Shown piece by piece: positions 28,456-64,000 of a stretch of 64,000 nt of DNA. Below the pieces are notes generated by a model. That model was not told the origin of the DNA and ran no database searches. It worked only from the letters and a program-made list of their open reading frames with translations. The DNA lies in assembly GCF_030756675.1 (NCBI RefSeq), contig NZ_JAVBXD010000014.1:31392-95391 (forward strand), in the 5' to 3' direction. Within the stretch, counting starts at the first letter, position 1. The number at the start of each line of letters is the position of its first letter. The position numbers and the translations under genes were made by a program. This stretch comes from Bacillus multifaciens. Its GTDB lineage: Bacteria; Bacillota; Bacilli; Bacillales; Bacillaceae_G.

Positions 28456-29695
28456 ATAAAAATATATGTTGGATTTCATTAAATCGAACAGGATGCTGCG
28501 TTATATCTCGCTTTATCATTTCACTGCAAAGAGATCCCTGTAAAATAGAGCAATAAGCAGCGCTTGCTTTTCGGTCTATATCTAGAAGAGGATGTTGGAA
28601 CGTTTTTGCATGAGAAAGCAATGGAAGTGTTATTTGCTTTTTTATTGCTGATATATATGCTTGTCCTTTTTGAGACATGCCGAGTAAACGAATATATTGT
28701 GCGTGTTGTTCAACATGCGCTTTGTACATTTCTTCTTTTGTAGTGTTCGTTAAAATGTGTGTGCAAATGCGCTGTAGTCGTGTCCACGTGTAACGTTTTG
28801 TTTTTAATACTTCCATAAATTTTGTGAATGAAGTTGCTTCTTGGATAGAAGATAAAATTCGATGTTCCAACCCTTCTTCCACTTCATATATATTTTGTAA
28901 TTGCGATGGTGACATTGTTAGGAGTTTATATTTTAGAAAGTGAAAATAATGCTCCCAATTATGTAATAGGTGATAGGAATGTTTATATTGCTCTAAAAAT
29001 AGTTTTGTAATTTTTGGAACAAAAGGAATAATTGTTGAAAAATTTTCCTGATTATTAAATAATTGTTTGCGAATGCTCGTTGCACTGGCAATTCGTTCAT
29101 CTTGAAATGTTTCGTCATGATAGTGCGAAGCGAAACGCGTAATTGTACTTGCTTTCATTAAACTTTTTTGTTTGATAATTGCCTCTATGTAATGCATTCC
29201 TAAAATATTATTAGGCTCTGAAATGTCGATAGTAGTTATGTTTTTTTGTAAGGATGAAAACGCTTCAGAAGTTGCTTTCGCATAACTCATTCCTGTTTTT
29301 GAGTATTGTTGTATGAGGGAATGGAATGTGTTTTGCTCAGTTTGACGCAAAGTAACTGTATTGTAGAAGTGCTCGATATTACCACTTTCACTCCCAAAGC
29401 AAACCTCAGAGACACGAAGAGCATCTAATATTGAAATAGCACCGTTTGCAAAAGTTTCGGCTTTTTGTGTCGCGAAAGCATATGGCAGTTCGACGACAAT
29501 GTCCACGCCATTTGCTAATGCCATTTGAGTTCGCGCCCATTTTGAAACGAGAGCCGGTTCCCCTCGTTGTAAAAAGGGTCCGCTCATAACAGCAATGATG
29601 ATATCCGCATTTGTTAACTTTTTCGTTTGTTGCATATGATAAGCATGACCATTGTGAAATGGATTATATTCAACAACAATTCCGCTAGCCTTTAT
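28454..29695 (-). CDS. tmcAL: tRNA(Met) cytidine acetate ligase TmcAL (YlbM), ATA start
   Basis: A 413-residue nucleotidyltransferase that makes N4-acetylcytidine at the elongator tRNA-Met wobble base from acetate and ATP. The first ATG (29635) gives a 393-residue product missing the HxGH motif. The frame continues upstream through [19 protein letters not shown], the conserved family N-terminus, with no ATG/GTG/TTG. The likely initiator is ATA 29695 with GGGGAG 6 nt upstream; ATT at 29698 is the alternative. Also visible: [17 protein letters not shown] and SATSIRKQL. It is the last chromosomal gene before the prophage. Confidence 0.9.
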
Positions 29696-29829
29696 AATAA
29701 TCTCCCCTTTCAGTGTAGCATCTTTTTCTAAAACATGATAATCTATATATTATTTCCTATAATGACTTCATTATAGTGTAAAGAAAAAACTTACACTATA
29801 AATGCATTATATCATTTGTACCACGGGAT

Positions 29830-30960
29830 TTAATCCTCTTGATTTTCATCAACGACCACTTTTTGACCACTTCGACCACTTTTTAGTACATTTCCGAGCT
29901 TTTCAGTAGCTTCAATTTGACGTTCCTCATACGTATCAGTATAAATATTTAAGGTTGTGGAAACATTTGTATGACCAAGTAATTTTGCGACAACCTTTGC
30001 ATTTGCGCCAGAATCGATTAAAATAGTTGTAAACGTTCTTCGGATATCGTGGAATCTAATATACGGTACGTCTATTGCTTCGCACAAAGCTTTCATTTGA
30101 TAACGTATTGTATATGGATGCACGATTTTTTTATTTCTTGTGCAAATTAATAAATCAAAAGAATTCTCTTTTTTATGTTTTTGATATTCCAGCAATTCTT
30201 CCATTAATTCTTCCGTCATTGGGATCACACGATTAGATGCTTCTGTTTTCGTCTCACCTAATTCATATTTACCATCCACGAGCGTTAATGTCCTTTGTAC
30301 ATGAATAGCTTTATTTTCAAAATTAATATCATTCCACTGTAGAGCCAATACTTCACCAATACGCATGCCTGTATGCAGTGCTAAAATAAATGCAATATAG
30401 TAGCTGCCTTTCATTTTGGCGTACTCCATAAACTTCATTGCTTGTTCAATTGTCCAACTAGCTTGCGCTTTCTTTTTCACTTTTGGCCGCTTTGCTTTCT
30501 TAGCAGGATTAGAGCTAATCATTTCTAACTCTACGCCTTTATCAAGGATTTGCTTTAACATAACATCGACTGATGAAATGTATTTTGTAGTCAGACCCTC
30601 TTTAAGTAGCTTCTGATGAAAATTATGCACGGTCAGAGGTTTTATATCTGATAACCTCTTATCGGCAAATTCAGGCATAACACGTGAGCGTAGAATGCGT
30701 TTGTATTGATACAATGTTGATGGCCTACATGATGATTCTTTCTCTTGCATCCAGATTTCTACGAGTTGAGAAAAGCGAATATCACTATTCTCATAATCCC
30801 CACTTGCTAAATTATTCGTTATTTTAGCTACTTCTTCCTGGGCAGCTTTCTTTGTTTTAAAACCGCCTTTAGTGATTTGTTTCCGTTTACCTGTGAGTGG
30901 GTCTTTGCCAACATCCATAGTGAAGGACCACTTCTCACCACGTTTACGAAAGTATGCCAT
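29830..30960 (-). CDS. int: Phage integrase, tyrosine recombinase
   Basis: A 376-residue recombinase: N-terminal arm-binding domain (KRKQITKGGFKTKKAAQEEV), SAM-like core-binding domain (from about 60) and catalytic domain with Arg in TGMRIGEVLAL, HxxR in HDIRRTF, LGHTN and the nucleophile Tyr in TTLNIYTD. It catalyses phage integration at the tmcAL intergenic site. ATG 30960 has GAGGTG 7 nt upstream; a longer frame exists without a site. It is transcribed leftward, with its 3' end next to the chromosome junction. Confidence 0.96.
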   Translation of the reverse strand: MAYFRKRGEKWSFTMDVGKDPLTGKRKQITKGGFKTKKAAQEEVAKITNNLASGDYENSDIRFSQLVEIWMQEKESSCRPSTLYQYKRILRSRVMPEFADKRLSDIKPLTVHNFHQKLLKEGLTTKYISSVDVMLKQILDKGVELEMISSNPAKKAKRPKVKKKAQASWTIEQAMKFMEYAKMKGSYYIAFILALHTGMRIGEVLALQWNDINFENKAIHVQRTLTLVDGKYELGETKTEASNRVIPMTEELMEELLEYQKHKKENSFDLLICTRNKKIVHPYTIRYQMKALCEAIDVPYIRFHDIRRTFTTILIDSGANAKVVAKLLGHTNVSTTLNIYTDTYEERQIEATEKLGNVLKSGRSGQKVVVDENQED

Positions 30961-31293
30961 GATTTTCACCTCGTCATAATCATTTTCTAGATACAAGCTG
31001 TGATATGTGGTACAAGAAATGATAGCATAGAAAATGAATTTTTGTAAAAATATAGCTGAATTTGAATAAAAGTTCTCTACATATTGGTACGAAATGGATA
31101 TAATGGACTATATATATAAATGCAGATAATACCTAAATGGAAACCAAAGTTAATTAGATAATATAAACGAAAATTTTGTAAAACTCCCATTACTATACGA
31201 TTTTGAGTGGAAACTAATTAGCATTATATATAAAAAGGAGAATACAGAATGAGAAAATAATTATGATTCACATGTAAAAGGGGACATCGGTAA
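30961..31293. other. Non-coding gap between integrase and HipA-like gene
   Basis: 333 nt of very AT-rich sequence separating divergent genes, expected to hold both promoters. I see several TATAAT-like words (for example GGATATAATGG near 31095) but no -35/-10 pair I would call. AAGGGGA before 31294 is the ribosome site of the next gene. Nothing else recognisable. Confidence 0.4.
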
Positions 31294-32103
31294 ATGGAAA
31301 TCGTGACAGCAAAAATAGCACATAAAGAAATCACAAATGGCGTTACAAAACCATATATTATTACATGCGATGATAGTGAACAATATGTTGTGAAATTTAA
31401 AGAAAACCCAGAAGGAAAAAGGGTATTAGCAAATGAATATGTATGTGCAAAGATAGCCGAAATTCTTGAATTGCCCCTTGCTTCTCCATCTTTGGTACAA
31501 GTTAATGACACTTTTATTGGGGATTTTGGAAAGCAAGTTTCAGAACATACAGAGGATACTGTTACTACAGGTCTCCATTTTGGAACTAAAAGAATAAAAA
31601 AGGCGTTCCAAATTACTGGAGCAGGTATGTTGAAATTAGCGAAGAATATTGAATGTATACCGGATATAATTTTATTCGATCAACTAGTTTGTAATTGCGA
31701 TAGAGAGTGTAATGGTGGTAATCTATTGTTTGACCAATCTAAAATGGAAATTGTAGTTCTGGATCATACACACGCATTTGATATAGGTCCATTGTGGGAT
31801 GAACATAATTTAAATTTCAAAATTGGGGAAGCTTTCAAACCCCTTCAACCAGATGGATATGTATATAGAAAATTAATCCCCTATGTAAATGGTCATAATC
31901 CGTTTAACTCAATTTTAGAGAAAATGGCAAGACTAGATGATAATTCTTTGTGGGACATTATAAATAATATTCCTGAAGAATGGGGCGTTACTGGTGCCCA
32001 AAAAGAAAAATTACTTGAATACCTAGGAGATAGGCTGAATAGAATTGAAAAAGCTTTACCTGTATTAAAACCAGGATTACCTTATTGGAAAGGAGGGTCA
32101 TAG
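31294..32103 (+). CDS. HipA-like kinase-fold protein (HipA_2 type)
   Basis: A 269-residue protein resembling the small HipA-like family. It has a nucleotide-binding lysine in YVVKFKENPEG, a following glutamate in LANEYVCAKIAEIL, a catalytic loop NCDRECNGGNLLF with Asp and Asn, and a metal-binding VLDHTHAFD. Classical HipA kinases phosphorylate glutamyl-tRNA synthetase; the target of this shorter family is not known to me. Its stop codon lies in the 3-nt gap before a DUF3037 gene, a recurrent partner of this family. It sits between integrase and the lysogeny module, a typical place for accessory genes. Confidence 0.8.
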   Translation: MEIVTAKIAHKEITNGVTKPYIITCDDSEQYVVKFKENPEGKRVLANEYVCAKIAEILELPLASPSLVQVNDTFIGDFGKQVSEHTEDTVTTGLHFGTKRIKKAFQITGAGMLKLAKNIECIPDIILFDQLVCNCDRECNGGNLLFDQSKMEIVVLDHTHAFDIGPLWDEHNLNFKIGEAFKPLQPDGYVYRKLIPYVNGHNPFNSILEKMARLDDNSLWDIINNIPEEWGVTGAQKEKLLEYLGDRLNRIEKALPVLKPGLPYWKGGS

Positions 32104-32973
32104 ATGGAACGTTTGTGTAAATATGCTGTTCTTAGATATGTGCCAGATGATATTAGAGAAGAGTTTATAAATATTGGTTTAGTTTTTCATTCACCTGAGG
32201 ATGCTTATGTGAATTTGCAGTTGACTGCCAATTTTAGTCGTGTTAGTCAATTTGATGATGAATCGGATGTTAAGTTTTTAAAATTGGTACTAGAAGGAGT
32301 CAAAGACGATTTTACACAGTCCATTACCGACGGTCCTTCTCTTCAACAGGCAAAAGATCCTAAATTTCTAGAAAAGGCAACATCCATATATGTAAATCAG
32401 CTTCAATTTTCTCCAATTAGAACTATTAGAAGTCGTGATTATTTAAAAGATGAAATAGACCTTTTTAGAACATATGTATATTTTGATCCTAATAAATCAA
32501 AACGTATAACAGACACAGAAGTTAAAAGCATTATGAGTCGCGTATTTAGAAATCATGAAAAGAATATATCTGGGAATTTAGAGCGGAATGTTGAAGTGGA
32601 TATTGGGGCTGAAGACATAAAGTTAGATTTTGCCTTTAAAAAGGATCATAAGGCTAAATTTATAAAAACACTATCTTTTGACTATGCTTTAAGAAATAGC
32701 AAAAAAGCGACACAATTAGCAAAAGAATGGGCATGGAATTATGAGAAAATGCTAAAGGATAAATATAAAATAAATAGTAATTTAATAACTGCAGATGAAC
32801 TTGATATCGTGACAGTAATTTATTTTAAATCTACGAATAAGAATATTAAAACAGCTTTAAATATTTTAAGTGAAGTTTCTCATATTGTAGAAGCAACAAA
32901 CGAAGAAAAAATTATTGCTTTTGCTGATGAAATTATAGGTGATATTTCAAAACAGGTTGGTACTCATTCATAA
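32104..32973 (+). CDS. DUF3037-like partner of the HipA-like kinase
   Basis: A 289-residue protein whose N-terminus (KYAVLRYVPDDIREEFINIGLVFHSPE) has the DUF3037 pattern: a YxxLRYVPD start and a F(V/I)NIGL(V)F motif. The C-terminal half is helical and unassigned. The ATG follows the kinase stop codon directly, with AGGAGGG upstream, so the two are translationally coupled and probably act together. Function unknown; the linkage suggests a two-component regulatory, toxin-antitoxin or defence module, which is inference. Confidence 0.75.
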   Translation: MERLCKYAVLRYVPDDIREEFINIGLVFHSPEDAYVNLQLTANFSRVSQFDDESDVKFLKLVLEGVKDDFTQSITDGPSLQQAKDPKFLEKATSIYVNQLQFSPIRTIRSRDYLKDEIDLFRTYVYFDPNKSKRITDTEVKSIMSRVFRNHEKNISGNLERNVEVDIGAEDIKLDFAFKKDHKAKFIKTLSFDYALRNSKKATQLAKEWAWNYEKMLKDKYKINSNLITADELDIVTVIYFKSTNKNIKTALNILSEVSHIVEATNEEKIIAFADEIIGDISKQVGTHS

Positions 32974-32996
32974 AAAGAGCCATTTAGCTCTTTTTG
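32972..32996 (+). terminator. Terminator after the DUF3037 gene (first of twin terminators)
   Basis: AAAAAGAGC-CATTTA-GCTCTTTTT starting at the stop codon. Nearly the same sequence recurs at 33364 after the peptide genes. Confidence 0.9.
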
Positions 32997-33066
32997 TTTC
33001 ATTTACAGATACAGAACGTGTGAGCTACAATATTTACATAGTTAAAAATAGGAGGTGGATATTAGA

Positions 33067-33261
33067 ATGGGCATTTTCACAAAAGAACCAGGTGGACATT
33101 ATGTATCTGATCCTGGTGGCGGATGGGGACCTATGAAAGACCCAGGTGGATTGAAGAGTGTAACTGATCCTGGTGGTGGAGTGGGATTTAAAGACAGTGA
33201 TCCTAATCCAGGAGGCGGCCGTATGAAAGACCCAGGCGGTGGAGGCTGGAAATTATGCTAA
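33067..33261 (+). CDS. Small proline-glycine repeat peptide 1 (64 aa)
   Basis: 64 residues built from six degenerate units of the type (D/E/N)PGG(G) separated by 4-10 residues: EPGG, DPGGG, DPGG, DPGGG, NPGGG, DPGGGG, ending WKLC. GGAGG lies 11 nt before ATG 33067; an in-frame GTG at 33055 overlaps that site. No signal peptide or membrane segment; the single cysteine is the last residue. I know no family with this pattern. It has its own terminator and sits directly after the HipA-like/DUF3037 pair. Confidence 0.6.
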   Translation: MGIFTKEPGGHYVSDPGGGWGPMKDPGGLKSVTDPGGGVGFKDSDPNPGGGRMKDPGGGGWKLC

Positions 33262-33365
33262 TGCATAAAAGAAGTTGTGACCCAGGAGTTGGATGGTCAT
33301 ATGCAAAAGATCCTGGTGGAACAGGTGGCAAAATGTTAGATTTTGACCATGGTACAGGAATTTAA
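33261..33365 (+). CDS. Small proline-glycine repeat peptide 2 (34 aa)
   Basis: A 34-residue frame whose ATG overlaps the stop of peptide 1 (TAATG), so it can be translated by reinitiation. It contains two more units (CDPGVGW and KDPGGTGGK) and ends FDHGTGI. The shared motif with peptide 1 supports it being coding despite its size. It is too short for routine gene finders. Function unknown. Confidence 0.55.
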   Translation: MHKRSCDPGVGWSYAKDPGGTGGKMLDFDHGTGI

Positions 33366-33390
33366 AAAGAGCCATTTGGCTCTTTTTTTA
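33364..33390 (+). terminator. Terminator after the PGG peptides (second of twin terminators)
   Basis: AAAAAGAGCC-ATTT-GGCTC followed by seven T; nearly the same as the terminator at 32972. Confidence 0.9.
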
Positions 33391-33545
33391 TTTGTTTGAA
33401 AAATTATATGATATTTTCTGTATCAAACCCTTTGATTTTTGTAGAATAAATTGTTGTTATTTTGTGAAATTATGTCGGAATAAAAATCTAAATATTTATA
33501 TATAGTGTAATATAAATTAAATAAAAAAGAGTGGTTGATATCTTT

Positions 33546-33808: not shown

Positions 33809-34276
33809 CTAAACTAAGCAACCTATTAATTTTTGATGTTTTAATAATAATAACTCTTTTGGGACCCCTGTATGATTAGACATTGCATTTATAGTTTTAA
33901 ATTCTTTTGCATATGCATGCCAATTCTCATCTGGCATTAATAATTCTACTGCAAATAAATTGGCCTGTCTCTCATATTTATCTACAGATAAGAATGTATT
34001 AGCGCGTAAAAACGGAGTATTGACATGCTTATGCATTCTGCAATGTCCTAGTTCATGTGAACAAGTAACAATTTGCTCATTGAAACTTAAATTTTCGTTA
34101 ATACAAATATACTGGTTTTTCTTATTGTACTTATAAAAACCCATAATACTTGGGGGCAAGTTTTTATAAAAAACATGCACGTTTAAATTCTCAGCTATTT
34201 CAAAAGGGTCTGTTGTATTAAACTTTTTTGCTAGATCTAATGCTGCGTCTTTTTCATAGTAGCCCAATTGAATCAC
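33809..34276 (-). CDS. immA: ImmA/IrrE-type metallopeptidase
   Basis: A 155-residue protein with zinc-binding HELGH (in VTCSHELGHCRMH) and a downstream acidic residue in YERQANLFAVELLMP, the ImmA/IrrE family pattern. In ICEBs1 and related phages ImmA cleaves the repressor ImmR when the host signals DNA damage or low cell-cell competition, inducing excision. It starts 2 nt after the repressor stop codon, the normal immR-immA order. Confidence 0.9.
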   Translation of the reverse strand: MIQLGYYEKDAALDLAKKFNTTDPFEIAENLNVHVFYKNLPPSIMGFYKYNKKNQYICINENLSFNEQIVTCSHELGHCRMHKHVNTPFLRANTFLSVDKYERQANLFAVELLMPDENWHAYAKEFKTINAMSNHTGVPKELLLLKHQKLIGCLV

Positions 34277-34278
34277 TC

Positions 34279-34710
34279 CTACTTGTCTTCTTTTCTGTAT
34301 TTTTTAGGGATGTATTTTTTATTTACTTTTTGTGTATGTTTAACGATGTATTCCATTGCATCCATCAACGAGTCTAAAGCTTCTTCAGAAAGAGGTTCAC
34401 CAGAAAACATTAATCCATCAGTATCTGTCAGATCTTTGCGTATCTCTTCCATTCTTTTTCCAATGTCTTTTCTATCCTTTTCGGTAAAACCTTCTGCATC
34501 TTTAATAGTATCTTTATTTGAAGTTCTTCCTAATAGATAATCAATTGAAACGTCGAAGTAGTCTGCTACCTTTTGTACACGTTCAACAGAAGGTGTCCTT
34601 TTTTTCCACTGGTAAATAGTATTTTGACCAAATTCTAATTCTTCTTCTAATTTAGATACTGATATTCCTTTATTTTGACAAAGTTCTTTAATTATCTCAG
34701 TAATACCCAC
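34279..34710 (-). CDS. Phage repressor, XRE family (ImmR/CI-like)
   Basis: A 143-residue protein: N-terminal helix-turn-helix (ISVSKLEEELEFGQNTIYQWKKRTPS, then VADYFDVSIDYLLGR) and an acidic helical C-terminal part. I favour GTG 34710, preceded by AAAGG; an upstream in-frame ATG overlaps the operator side without a ribosome site. It should repress the rightward early promoter and be inactivated through the adjacent ImmA. Confidence 0.88.
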   Translation of the reverse strand: MGITEIIKELCQNKGISVSKLEEELEFGQNTIYQWKKRTPSVERVQKVADYFDVSIDYLLGRTSNKDTIKDAEGFTEKDRKDIGKRMEEIRKDLTDTDGLMFSGEPLSEEALDSLMDAMEYIVKHTQKVNKKYIPKKYRKEDK

Positions 34711-34740
34711 ATAAACCAACCTTTCAAGCCAGCACAAAAA

Positions 34741-42392: not shown

Positions 42393-44985
42393 GCGCGACA
42401 CGTTTCCTTATAAATGTGTAAGCATGAAGTAGGAGGGTTATCAACTTGATAACAACAACTGATTGACTGAAAGTAGGAATGAAAGCCGTCAAGTTGAGCT
42501 GAAACTACTTATCTAATACTCCTACATGCAAGGCGTGATAGTAGTCACAAATTGTATGAAGCTAGGTGAAGTCGGCTGAACAAAACCTAAGTGAGAAATC
42601 ATATGGTAATGGATAGGTCGGGATGCTACAAAATATCTACGGTGAGAATGTCCGATAGGACTGACGAACTTGTGAATGTACGGGTCTAAACGCTTGATAC
42701 ATCAGAAATGTGTATGTCGTCTATGACGACGTTATCTACCGAAAAGTAAGAGTAAATAATATGAAATTCGGGACATCTAACGATGAGGATGTAAAGATAA
42801 CAGGCTTACAGCAAGCACCTAAAGATATATGCACAGCTAGGTCAATCGGAACGTGGTAAGCAAGAAGCTGTCATCAACGCCTACTAGCGGACAGATGCAT
42901 ATAAGGTTCTAACGAACCGAAATTGCTTCATTCTTGTGAAGGTGGGGACACAGTACCGATGAAACATGTAACGAATGTGGAGGGATAGTCCCTAGTCTTG
43001 CTCTTTGAAAACTAAATTAACTAGATGTAACTCACAGGATCGAGTAAGATGATGGGACTTTTCGTAAGAAAGGGGAAATAATACATCGGTGAGTACAACA
43101 TTACGACATGCAGAATATTACGATATGCAAAAAGTGTTCGATGATTTATATCAACGTAGTGAAAACAACGCCACCAAAGGTGTAAATCTATATAAACATA
43201 TCATATCAAAAGAAAATATTCTATTGGCATATAGAAGCATAAAGGCTAACAATGGTTCTAAAACCGAAGGTACAGATGGTATTACAATTGACCACTATAA
43301 AATGAAAGATGTGGATTCTTTTGTTGATAATATAAGAAAAGCTCTCGTAGACTACAAACCTAATACAGTACGTAGGGTAGAGATATCGAAACCAAATGGA
43401 AAGAAACGCCCATTAGGAATACCTTCTATGAGAGATAGATTGATACAACAAATGTTCAAGCAGGTTCTAGAGCCAATATGTGAAGCGAAATTCTACAAAC
43501 ACTCATATGGATTCAGACCTAACAGGTCAACACATCATGCAATGGCTAGGTGTCAATTCTTGATGAATCGAGGAGGATACAGTCACGTAGTAGATATTGA
43601 TATACAAGGTTTCTTTGATAACATAAACCATTCTAAATTACTGAAACAACTATATAACATAGGTATAACTGATAGAAGAGTACTAACAATCATCTCGAAA
43701 ATGTTAAAAGCACCAATTAAAGGAGAAGGCATCCCTACAAAAGGGACTCCGCAAGGAGGAATCCTAAGTCCATTACTCAGCAACGTCGTATTAAATGATT
43801 TGGATTGGTGGATATCTAGTCAGTGGGATACTATCAAAACAAGAAAACCACATACAATCCAAACTAAAAACTATCGTTTAGCAAAAGCAAAACTAAAGAG
43901 AATGTATATAGTCAGGTATGCGGATGATTTTAAAATATTTACAAACAATCATCAATCTGCAACAAAAATATTCTATGCGGTAGAAGGTTACCTTAAAAAT
44001 CAATTACACCTTAATATATCTAATGAAAAATCAACTATAACTAACCTAAAAAGAAAATCTTCAGATTTTCTAGGGTTCTCCATTAAATCGGTCAAAAAGA
44101 ACAAAAGACATGTAGCGAACACACATGTAAGCAAGAAAAAGATAAAGGATATCCTTGAAAAAGCAAGGATACTGATTAAAGCAATTCAAAAGAGTCCATC
44201 AGGAAAAACAGTACAGGACTATAATTCCTATGTGCTTGGCATTAAAAATTATTACAAAATCGCAACACATGTAACTATAGACTTTACTGAAATAGCCTTT
44301 CGTCTCTCGAAAACCCTGTTTAATCGTCTGAAATCGATAGGGAAATATAAGATTCCTACCAATGCAAACGCATTATACAAAAGAACTCATAGGAACAATT
44401 ATAGAACTTTTGAAATAGCAGGTAATCATGTATATCCACTAGCGGATATACAAACACGATTCCCTCAAAGTTTCAGTCAAGACATTTGCAACTACACTAG
44501 AAAAGGAAGACAAAAACTCATCAAAAGCCTAAAAGGTAACATTGCCAATGAAATGCAAAAAATGTTGTTATCCTCCAATAAAAGACAGAGCCTGGAGTAC
44601 GCAGATAACAGAATATCGAGATATTCCATGCAAAATGGTAAATGCGCTGTCACCGGAATCTTCCTAACAGCCGAAGATGTGCACTGCCACCATAAAATAC
44701 CGAGAGGTATGGGAGGTACTGACGAGTTTAATAACCTAATTATTGTACATGAATTTGTCCATAGACTGATACACGCCACAAATGAAGAAACGATTAAAAC
44801 ATATATGAGAATACTTCAATTGAGCGATAATCAACTGAAGAAAATAAACAAACTTCGTAAAGTTTGTAATCTAGTTACTTTAGTATAAAAGAATAAGATG
44901 GGGCGCTGTATGCGGTGAAAGTCGCACGTACAGTGCTAAGCGGGGGAAAAGATGGAGATAACTTCAAAGTATTACCTATCGCAAC
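42393..44985 (+). mobile_element. Group II intron 1, with reverse transcriptase ORF
   Basis: 2593 nt. The 5' end is GCGCGAC (GUGYG-like), 696 nt precede the ORF, and domain V reads GCTGTATGCGGTGAAAGTCGCACGTACAGT at 44906-44935 in pieces. Domain VI leads to a 3' end near ATCGCAAC. The boundaries are set by comparison with copy 2 at 45230, which shares both ends. The 5' exon (ATCGTTATTT) resembles that of copy 2 (AACGCTATTT), as expected for IBS recognition. It is inserted between genes, so splicing is not needed for any protein. Confidence 0.9.
43089..44888 (+). CDS. ltrA: Group II intron reverse transcriptase/maturase (LtrA-like)
   Basis: A 599-residue protein. RT domain with KPNGKKRPLGIPSMRDR, GFRPNRSTHHA, GTPQGGILSPLLSN and the catalytic YADD box; then a maturase (X) domain and a C-terminal HNH endonuclease (CAVTG, CHHKIPRGMGG, HEFVHRLIH). 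It aids splicing and retrohoming of its intron, possibly also of the ORF-less copy. GTG start inside the intron at the expected domain IV position; AAAGGGG upstream. All motifs look intact. Confidence 0.96.
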   Translation: MSTTLRHAEYYDMQKVFDDLYQRSENNATKGVNLYKHIISKENILLAYRSIKANNGSKTEGTDGITIDHYKMKDVDSFVDNIRKALVDYKPNTVRRVEISKPNGKKRPLGIPSMRDRLIQQMFKQVLEPICEAKFYKHSYGFRPNRSTHHAMARCQFLMNRGGYSHVVDIDIQGFFDNINHSKLLKQLYNIGITDRRVLTIISKMLKAPIKGEGIPTKGTPQGGILSPLLSNVVLNDLDWWISSQWDTIKTRKPHTIQTKNYRLAKAKLKRMYIVRYADDFKIFTNNHQSATKIFYAVEGYLKNQLHLNISNEKSTITNLKRKSSDFLGFSIKSVKKNKRHVANTHVSKKKIKDILEKARILIKAIQKSPSGKTVQDYNSYVLGIKNYYKIATHVTIDFTEIAFRLSKTLFNRLKSIGKYKIPTNANALYKRTHRNNYRTFEIAGNHVYPLADIQTRFPQSFSQDICNYTRKGRQKLIKSLKGNIANEMQKMLLSSNKRQSLEYADNRISRYSMQNGKCAVTGIFLTAEDVHCHHKIPRGMGGTDEFNNLIIVHEFVHRLIHATNEETIKTYMRILQLSDNQLKKINKLRKVCNLVTLV

Positions 44986-49555: not shown

Positions 49556-50632
49556 GTGGGAAATGAAAACTTTTTTGAAAAGAAGAGGATAGAAAATGAA
49601 GATAAAAGTGATAAGGCTTATACTTGGACATTTGATACTAATAAGGAATGTAATTTGATTGAACATAGTGAATGCAAAGTAATGTCTGAGGATCTTCAAG
49701 CAATCACAAAAACGCAAGAAAACATTGAAAAGATAGCAGGAGCATTTAATAATTATCCATTAATACAAGTTCAAAAAAATGCTCAAACAATGGTGGAAAT
49801 GTCAAAAAGACTGCAACCATTTATGGACATGCAAGAAAATGTTGAAAAGCTAACAGAAGCATTTACTAAGCATCCGCTAATACAAGTTCAAAAAAATGCT
49901 CAAACAATGGTGGAAATGTCAAAAAGACTGCAATCATTTATGGACATGCAGGAGAACATTAAGAAAATAGTAGAGACTTTTAATAATATTGATTTGAGCT
50001 CTATCCGTGATAAAGTAGCGGAAGAAATAACAGAAACGAGTGAATTGTTAATAAAACAAGAGGAAGGTTTTTGGTGTTTAGATATTGATATACTCAATGT
50101 GATGGGGGATAAAGAGTTAACTGAAGAGGGTTTATCAGATTATATTGAACGTAACCTCGAGACATACATTGCAGAGATAGTTCAAGATTCCATGTATGAA
50201 CTTCATATAACCTTAATTCAAGAAACTTACGAGGCATACAAAGGTGGTTTCTATAAATTATGTGTGATGCCGTTGTTTGCCGCATTTGAACATGTTTTCA
50301 CATCTTGGTACGCAGGAACTATCAATAAAGATGCAGTATTGGTTAAACAAAAGCCAAGAGTATTTAAACTTTATAATGAGATTAAAAATAAAGAATATAG
50401 TGAAGTAGAACAAGAGCATTTAATTAACGTTTTTGTCTTATCTATAATTCGGACATATAAGAATACATTTATAAAGATACCTGATGAATTATGTCAAAAA
50501 CTTAATCGGAATTCTATAGCACATGGTTTTCATGATTATGATTCTATTACTAAAGTAGATATCCTTAAATTGTTCCAGTTACTTAAAGCTACTTTAATTT
50601 TAAGATCGGTGAGCTCTCATAAATTTAAATGA
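49556..50632 (+). CDS. Accessory protein with coiled coil and HEPN-like C-terminus, 358 aa
   Basis: GTG start with AGGGGGGA 5 nt upstream. The N-terminal half is helical and holds a 39-residue tandem duplication (QVQKNAQTMVEMSKRLQ twice; 74 nt differing at one base), so it is recent. The C-terminal half has YKGGFYKLCVMPLFAAFEHVF and ends with NRNSIAHG, an R-x4-H motif (about R318/H323) followed by a helix, as in HEPN ribonucleases of abortive-infection systems. It stands alone between the late regulator and the packaging genes. Function is inferred only. Confidence 0.7.
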   Translation: MGNENFFEKKRIENEDKSDKAYTWTFDTNKECNLIEHSECKVMSEDLQAITKTQENIEKIAGAFNNYPLIQVQKNAQTMVEMSKRLQPFMDMQENVEKLTEAFTKHPLIQVQKNAQTMVEMSKRLQSFMDMQENIKKIVETFNNIDLSSIRDKVAEEITETSELLIKQEEGFWCLDIDILNVMGDKELTEEGLSDYIERNLETYIAEIVQDSMYELHITLIQETYEAYKGGFYKLCVMPLFAAFEHVFTSWYAGTINKDAVLVKQKPRVFKLYNEIKNKEYSEVEQEHLINVFVLSIIRTYKNTFIKIPDELCQKLNRNSIAHGFHDYDSITKVDILKLFQLLKATLILRSVSSHKFK

Positions 50633-63661: not shown

Positions 63662-64000
63662 ATGCCGGATACAATTCTCTTATTTAAAAATGGACAAACT
63701 TGCTCTCTTAAGAAAGACCACAATGTTGAAACGTTAGAATTAACAGTTGACCCTCCACAAAAAGAAGCACAGAAAACAAAATTAACCGGTAAGTTTGGCG
63801 TTCACTATTACAACAAGAGTTATACGGAAAGAGGATGCCAACTCAGAGTTCTTGTGGATACGATGGACATAGAGGGTGTTTATGAGAAAAGGAATGAGTT
63901 GTACGCCTTATTCGGAAGGCTAGAAGACTTTTATATCATATATTCAAGAGAACCAGGTATACGGAGACGTGTTGAGTATCAAGACATGAAAATCAATCGT
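63662..64000 (+). CDS. Distal tail protein (Dit), N-terminal part
   Basis: The 113 residues visible (MPDTILLFKNGQTCSLKKD.., YNKSYTERGCQLRVLVD, NELYALFGRLEDFYIIYSREP) match the Sipho_tail/Dit N-terminal domain and the position after the tape measure. AAGGGGGTAACAAGG precedes the ATG. The gene runs off the window. Confidence 0.88.
   Translation, partial: MPDTILLFKNGQTCSLKKDHNVETLELTVDPPQKEAQKTKLTGKFGVHYYNKSYTERGCQLRVLVDTMDIEGVYEKRNELYALFGRLEDFYIIYSREPGIRRRVEYQDMKINR

Follow-up and report, generated by a model that had tools for sequence, protein, structure and literature searches.

A cassette of two coupled small genes in a prophage

The window, by which we mean the whole 64,000-nucleotide stretch of DNA analyzed here, contains a prophage, and a small cassette lies in it next to the integrase side, behind a gene pair for a HipA_2 kinase and a DUF3037 protein (Table 1). 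Two small coupled genes, together encoding eight (D/E/N)PG[GV] units, occupy the region from 33001 to 33390. This confirms, in coordinates and content, a reading made from the sequence alone, which had described two tiny overlapping genes with TAATG coupling and eight (D/E/N)PGG-type units (one of them proved to be DPGV). The two ORF2 units are CDPGVGW and KDPGGTGG, and an alternative ORF2 start, the ATG at 33255, is possible. Six units stand in one frame, compared with a maximum of one in 2,000 dinucleotide shuffles of the region. The sequence-only reading had also placed the cassette between two near-identical terminators and behind a HipA-like/DUF3037 pair, and both statements held: the 25-nt terminator cores are 96% identical, the scan found 2 terminator-like sites compared with 0.4 in shuffles, and the pair matches the models listed in Table 1. 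Promoter-like sites in the region showed no excess over chance (3 found, 3.0 expected in shuffles).

Table 1. Positions of the cassette and of its neighbors in the window
Feature	Position	Strand	Evidence and remarks
Tyrosine integrase	29830..30996	-	PF00589; usual neighbor of the cassette
HipA_2 kinase, PDC-M66A	31294..32103	+	PF20613; PADLOC 4.8e-28; between integrase and array
DUF3037 protein, PDC-M66B	32104..32973	+	PF11236; PADLOC 9.8e-20
Upstream terminator	32970..32997	+	Overlaps the end of the DUF3037 gene and parts that gene from the cassette
Promoter-like site TTTACA-18-TACAAT	33002..33031	+	Consensus scan, 10/12 matches
Ribosome-binding site AGGAGGTGG before ORF1	33050..33058	+	Direct sequence reading
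Array ORF1	33067..33261	+	64 aa; six [DEN]PGG units; C-terminal end KLC
Array ORF2	33261..33365	+	34 aa; TAATG coupling to ORF1
Downstream terminator of the cassette	33364..33387	+	
ImmA-type peptidase (Peptidase_M78)	33809..34276	-	PF06114
cI-like repressor (HTH_3)	34279..34737	-	PF01381

Neither ORF1 nor ORF2 matched a family at E values up to 1 in Pfam, NCBIfam, PADLOC, or PHROGs, which agrees with the earlier remark that no described family resembles them; profile searches handle low complexity poorly, which bears on this absence of matches. By eye, no basic and hydrophobic N-terminal export start was found in either ORF or in the relatives described below.

Farther into the prophage, the window encodes a 599-aa protein at 43089-44888, which we take to resemble reverse transcriptases of group II introns that end in HNH. 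A 358-aa prophage protein at 49556-50632 has a 117-bp tandem repeat at 49714-49960, and it shows weak similarity to HEPN (E value of 0.005, below the cut-off) and to PADLOC HEC-01A (E value of 0.001).

Passages of two papers describe a HipA-like kinase with DUF3037 (PDC-M66, DS-6, or HipAD) as a validated defense pair (PMC12548924, PMC13092281). A retron link of DUF3037 is also reported in part of the former (PMC12548924); the ORF lists showed us no reverse transcriptase next to the pair, and we set this link aside. A protein search with HipA_2 found no relative in viral or genome contigs, a DUF3037 search of 19 genomes gave no match, and the DUF3037 protein had no phage match, while its matches to five Vibrio plasmids covered 20% of its length.

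Related arrays in other prophages

Translated BLAST with the peptide against phage and plasmid records, and searches of viral contigs with back-translated peptides, gave no matches, a failure that BLAST's masking of low-complexity sequence probably explains in part. When named phages and plasmids were searched at the DNA level, neither the window nor one relative, used as queries, revealed an array; two short plasmid pieces matching approximately 33364-33407, behind ORF2, were taken as chance. Relatives were found by degenerate DNA patterns in viral contigs and genome contigs. These patterns fixed array residues (FTKxPGGH, YIKDPGG, KDPGTGI, and PGTGWK) and thus biased the start alignment, the core test, and the pN/pS values. 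A fair, pattern-independent sample came from a search with the replication protein of the window, which gave 80 loci (the best 80 of 120 confirmed); the 12 of these that bear an array form the sample. Of the genome stretches with the first DNA pattern (best 60 of 105), L043 and L064 were kept by eye, the others being chance-like. From the 17 viral stretches of one pattern, L107, L109, L110, L112, L115, and L117 were dropped by eye and L121 was kept, but it lies outside the count of 33 records used for AimR.

Arrays of the integrase class have a start like that of the window, usually an end of the form [DG]PGTG[IV], and one to three overlapping or closely spaced ORFs, with unit numbers per array from two or three (L120 and L133) up to about a dozen (L118). 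The start is shared in an alignment of nine arrays, in which FTK, PGG, and H were fixed beforehand by the pattern that fetched most of the nine; for example, ORF1 begins MGIFTKEPGGH, similar to MGEFTKEPGGH and MRKFTNDPGGH of prophage relatives. The start FT(K/N)(D/E)PGGH is present in 8 of the 12 pattern-independent loci, among which L147 and L148 carry the same array and some of those lacking the start begin inside the array at a contig edge, and 11 of the 12 have an ORF ending in [DG]PGTG[IV]. ORF2 of the window ends in HGTGI and the relatives in (D/G)PGTGI/V. At the DNA level, a block from approximately 32972 to 33126 is 67 to 77% identical in L123, L126, L131, L132, and L277, and 33275-33403 is 71% identical to the second array ORF of L277 and the DNA that follows it. 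A terminator behind the array was read by eye in L119, L120, and L122. The terminal cysteine of the first peptide, to which the sequence-only reading had drawn attention, is absent from all relatives listed.

A second class of arrays (L106, L108, L111, L113/L064, L114, L116/L121, L043, and L226) has a different location, which in several cases is close to lysis or terminase genes, and does not have the integrase-class start. KDPGGG peptides of this class are encoded at L106:8799-8939, L108:3684-3857, L111:2588-2931, L113:1740-1841, and L114:1305-1553. At L226:1345-1557, a DPGG array of a genome of the same order stands behind two genes that have no Pfam or PADLOC match, and at L121:1200-1560, where the array is the same as in L116, the DPGG frame is preceded by a short ATG frame and a stop codon in frame. 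An HMM of the integrase-side start (A1) matched a single genome among 397 of the order, which is also the one matched among 19 of the family, and neither of the two genomes known to hold second-class arrays, so this search is blind to the second class, and cellular genomes yielded little.

The usual gene order in the relatives is integrase (leftward), array (rightward), in some cases a repressor, and then AimR (rightward) and AimP. In 14 distinct records with integrase-side DNA (L120, L122, L123, L127, L128, L129, L132, L133/L229, L134, L135, L136, L138, L189, and L196), the integrase is transcribed away from the array with no or one cargo gene between them; the contigs of the other relatives start with the array itself or slightly upstream of it. 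In 21 of 30 records (one blastp query), the array is followed by an HTH repressor encoded on the opposite strand, with AimR and AimP beyond, and the distance from array to AimR ranges from a few hundred bases to about 2 kb. The integrase region of the window is 92.7% identical in DNA to that of L123 and 89.7% identical to that of L132. The window also shares with L132, at 72.6% DNA identity, a chromosomal gene beside the integrase (28539-29859), presumably that for tRNA(Met) cytidine acetate ligase, and the two thus seem to use the same attachment region. Gene content and the prophage relatives suggest that the host is a Bacillus, probably of the cereus group.

At the place of the HipA_2/DUF3037 pair, L123 has a DUF3800 gene, L120 has an Mrr-type endonuclease gene, and L132 has nothing. 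A DPGG pattern next to DUF3037, which the sequence-only reading had proposed looking for, did not recur: DUF3037 is found in 0 of 35 array-bearing viral records. DNA homology with L123, L131, and L277 begins at the first terminator, at 32972-32973. Because DUF3037 was found in none of the array-bearing viral records, the relatives have other cargo or none, and homology restarts at the first terminator, we conclude that the cassette stands alone as a unit and that the kinase pair is separate, inserted cargo.

The sequence-only reading had turned on conservation of the frame at synonymous sites, and the result differs between the relatives and the window. Among six distinct pattern-independent relatives, pN/pS over the first 16 codons is 0.35, and values of 0.13 to 0.24 were obtained over longer stretches in four sets of mostly pattern-fetched relatives. 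The window compared with the six pattern-independent relatives gives only 0.64 over 16 codons; its value of 0.41 with another set of relatives is biased low, since the pattern fixed eight of those codons in most of them. Judged by their sequences, the array relatives are kept as proteins, and the frame of the window itself appears modestly conserved.

Arbitrium signal cores within the arrays

The phage group to which these prophages belong decides between lysis and lysogeny by arbitrium signals, which are C-terminal (D/E)PGxx peptides. Published signals of the same form as the array units include MMSEPGGGGW and EIKPGG (in a portion of PMC11945551), and a propeptide of this form ends in YYMADPGGSVG (in a portion of PMC6669507).

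We found AimR (PF22871) in 27 of 33 array-bearing viral records, which are all 27 of the integrase class; the six array records without AimR belong to the second class, and several of these are fragments. The AimR gene in the record of L127 has 15 internal stops. Among the replication-protein records (best 80 of 120), AimR is present in 61 of 80, in 12 of 12 loci with an array versus 49 of 68 without one (one-sided P = 0.029), and we rejected the association of arrays with AimR as a main argument because it is mostly base rate. In the window, no AimR was found among ORFs of at least 120 aa up to position 64000 with a local HMM, the same HMM that found AimR in 86 loci; among the integrase-class array prophages analyzed that have DNA on both sides, it is the only one in which no AimR was found. 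The ImmA-type peptidase and the cI-like repressor of the window form a switch that stands where AimR and AimP stand in relatives.

In 83 of the 86 loci, a finder that used length, an early lysine, and a hydrophobic stretch and required no PG motif detected an AimP-like ORF behind AimR (63 distinct ORFs; some records are present twice). All 83 have [DEG]P[GS] within the 16 residues at the C terminus; applied to 860 stretches taken at random from the same loci, the finder returned 165 ORFs, 14 of which have such an end. Some AimP precursors have two signal units, MDPGGL and then QVDPGGL or QADPGGL (L122:9355-9540, L190-L192, and L228).

We defined AimP cores as the residues from P to the C terminus and obtained 20 distinct cores from 26 hand-picked representatives of the 83 ORFs and two published peptides; EIKPGG was excluded, since nearly all arrays contain its core, PGG. 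A match had to be exact and at the start of a unit, and the null model shuffled each column among units; since this null treats related units as independent, the P values that follow are rough. The 51 distinct units of the 12 pattern-independent loci include 12 of the 20 cores, compared with 6.7 under the null (P = 0.0006). The excess was also seen for cores of length 5 or more (9 of 15, null 3.3, P = 0.0002) and when PGGH and PGGS, the cores favored by the patterns, were removed (10 of 18, null 4.9, P = 0.0008), both in the pattern-independent loci. All integrase-class arrays except the window (95 units) contain 13 of 20 cores (null 8.1, P = 0.0012), and the window alone contains 5, namely PGGGW, PGGL, PGGH, PGVGW, and PGGGGW (null 2.5, P = 0.011). 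In contrast, second-class arrays contain 3 of 20 (null 2.5), fewer than the 8.8 in size-matched samples of the first class (P = 0.0005). The core result thus stands in the pattern-independent repeat, while the pN/pS of the window itself weakens in that sample from 0.41 to 0.64. Most array units are internal, and the cores are mostly not C-terminal.

The core of a record's own AimP occurs in its own array in 0 of 27 records with an array and a readable AimP (P = 0.011 with types permuted and 0.078 with records permuted; an earlier, smaller set gave 0.033 and 0.12, respectively). This set was obtained from 29 records by dropping the duplicates L123 and L136; the record of L127, which has no readable AimP, was left out, and L228, L229, and L277 are in this test only and not in the core test. 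The AimP types PGTH and PGTLG, own to 17 of the 27 records, occur in no array of the set and therefore say little on self-avoidance. These data are suggestive of self-avoidance, in which a prophage's own signal is left out of its own array.

Possible roles of the arrays and comparison with known systems

We propose that the cassettes encode leaderless arrays of arbitrium-signal look-alikes that act inside the cell on the AimR of other phages, a reading in which our belief and our doubt are evenly matched. It is based on sequence features, namely coding, conservation in relatives, place in prophages, identity of units with AimP cores, and a lack of signal sequences judged by eye, and from these we infer expression, processing, AimR binding, and a direction of effect. 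The cassette would be a small, independent prophage transcription unit producing leaderless polypeptides of strung look-alikes, which, having no export signal, would remain inside the cell. These products, or fragments cut from them, may occupy the AimR of arbitrium phages that enter the lysogen and push the newcomers to dormancy, protecting the cell and the resident prophage. In the window, the target would be foreign, since the covered part of the prophage yielded no AimR. AimP acts with a free C terminus, which weighs against the array reading because most units are internal.

The push would likely be toward dormancy because, in the phages studied, aimX falls and lysogeny is promoted once AimP has bound AimR (parts of PMC8612738 and PMC6458997); in the opposite direction, a section of a review has two tested peptides of this group inducing lytic activity (PMC11945551). 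Part of PMC8612738 also proposes that AimP made by a lysogen drives an infecting phage to lysogeny, preserving the cell and the resident prophage, and the array would extend this effect to many signals simultaneously.

An unlikely reading, but one deserving of some weight, is that convergent low complexity accounts for the (D/E)PGG resemblance and that the array does something else, such as an anti-defense or structural function. Gly/Pro-rich repeats match each other easily, and the second-class DPGG peptides, some of them near lysis or terminase genes, have no excess of AimP cores. The integrase class, however, has more exact cores than the second class and than a null that keeps composition, the latter excess being present in the pattern-independent sample as well, and it has a consistent place beside the arbitrium module. 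That place, in the same prophages as AimR and at short distance from it, would also suit an array that acts on its own switch, as an internal store of signal that keeps the carrier's AimR signal-bound and stabilizes lysogeny. With the prophage's own core in none of the 27 arrays, and no AimR among the window ORFs of at least 120 aa scanned with the local HMM, we consider such a store improbable.

We give a similarly small chance to the array being a multi-signal pheromone that is exported by a non-Sec route and forms a further communication system. Passages of PMC10075063 report that a non-Sec exporter, PptAB, serves some RRNPP signals and that intragenic propeptide duplications occur, and the AimP of L122 has two units; yet the arrays, by eye, do not have the basic-hydrophobic N terminus by which the AimP-like ORFs were picked, and no receptor gene was found beside the array in the window. 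The sequence-only reading had offered an inhibitor, a substrate, or a signal for the kinase pair. It had also suggested a modified peptide, which the product may be. "Signal" comes close to our best reading, but a role for the array with the adjacent HipA_2/DUF3037 pair, as inhibitor, substrate, or signal, is highly improbable: the array does adjoin the pair on the same strand, but a terminator lies between them, none of the array-bearing viral records has DUF3037, the cargo at this place is different in L123 and absent in L132, and DUF3037 itself is the kinase neutralizer in published work (a portion of PMC12548924).

The preferred reading, that the look-alikes act on the AimR of other phages, has a broader form that we advance tentatively and are somewhat inclined to doubt. 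Prophages may possess libraries of counterfeit arbitrium signals that evolve; every unit would imitate the signal of a different rival phage lineage, and the carrier's own would be omitted. Expressed in the lysogen, such a library would turn incoming AimR from inside, and the window would represent a portable form, beside an integrase and defense cargo, with no arbitrium system of its own found. If this is true, phages also counterfeit each other's lysis-lysogeny signals, besides sending and reading them, and conflict between phages would have a new form, signal mimicry within the host. It would also offer a possible reason for the diversity of arbitrium signals in this phage group and an added kind of prophage-encoded protection (neither ORF matched the PADLOC defense library), and it would make cross-talk between arbitrium systems, a question raised in part of PMC8612738, directly testable.

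Our full-text literature searches, the reach of which excluded the main signal survey (Stokar-Avihail 2019), found no description of leaderless arbitrium arrays, and the string "PGG" does not occur in PMC10075063 or PMC13389391. The closest known counterpart of the array units, the AimP of Bacillus phages, shares with them the (D/E)PGxx core and the prophage group, and two-unit AimP precursors exist (L122). However, AimP has a basic-hydrophobic N terminus, its gene stands directly behind AimR, and it ends in one or two signals, whereas the arrays, by eye, have no such N terminus, stand before AimR beside the integrase, and string their units over one to three ORFs. Because they have neither the export signal, by eye, nor the place behind AimR, the arrays are not AimP. 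RRNPP propeptides likewise come from short genes with short signal peptides, with intragenic duplications reported (in passages of PMC10075063), but have export sequences and a place beside their receptor. The genes at 31294-32973 fit the kinase and DUF3037 pair of PDC-M66/HipAD, and the array is only a neighbor of this pair and, as the viral records without DUF3037 indicate, not its third component. Like superinfection exclusion and lysogenic-conversion genes, the array would protect the lysogen from an accessory place beside the integrase, but it would do so by signal mimicry and not by an entry block or a repressor.
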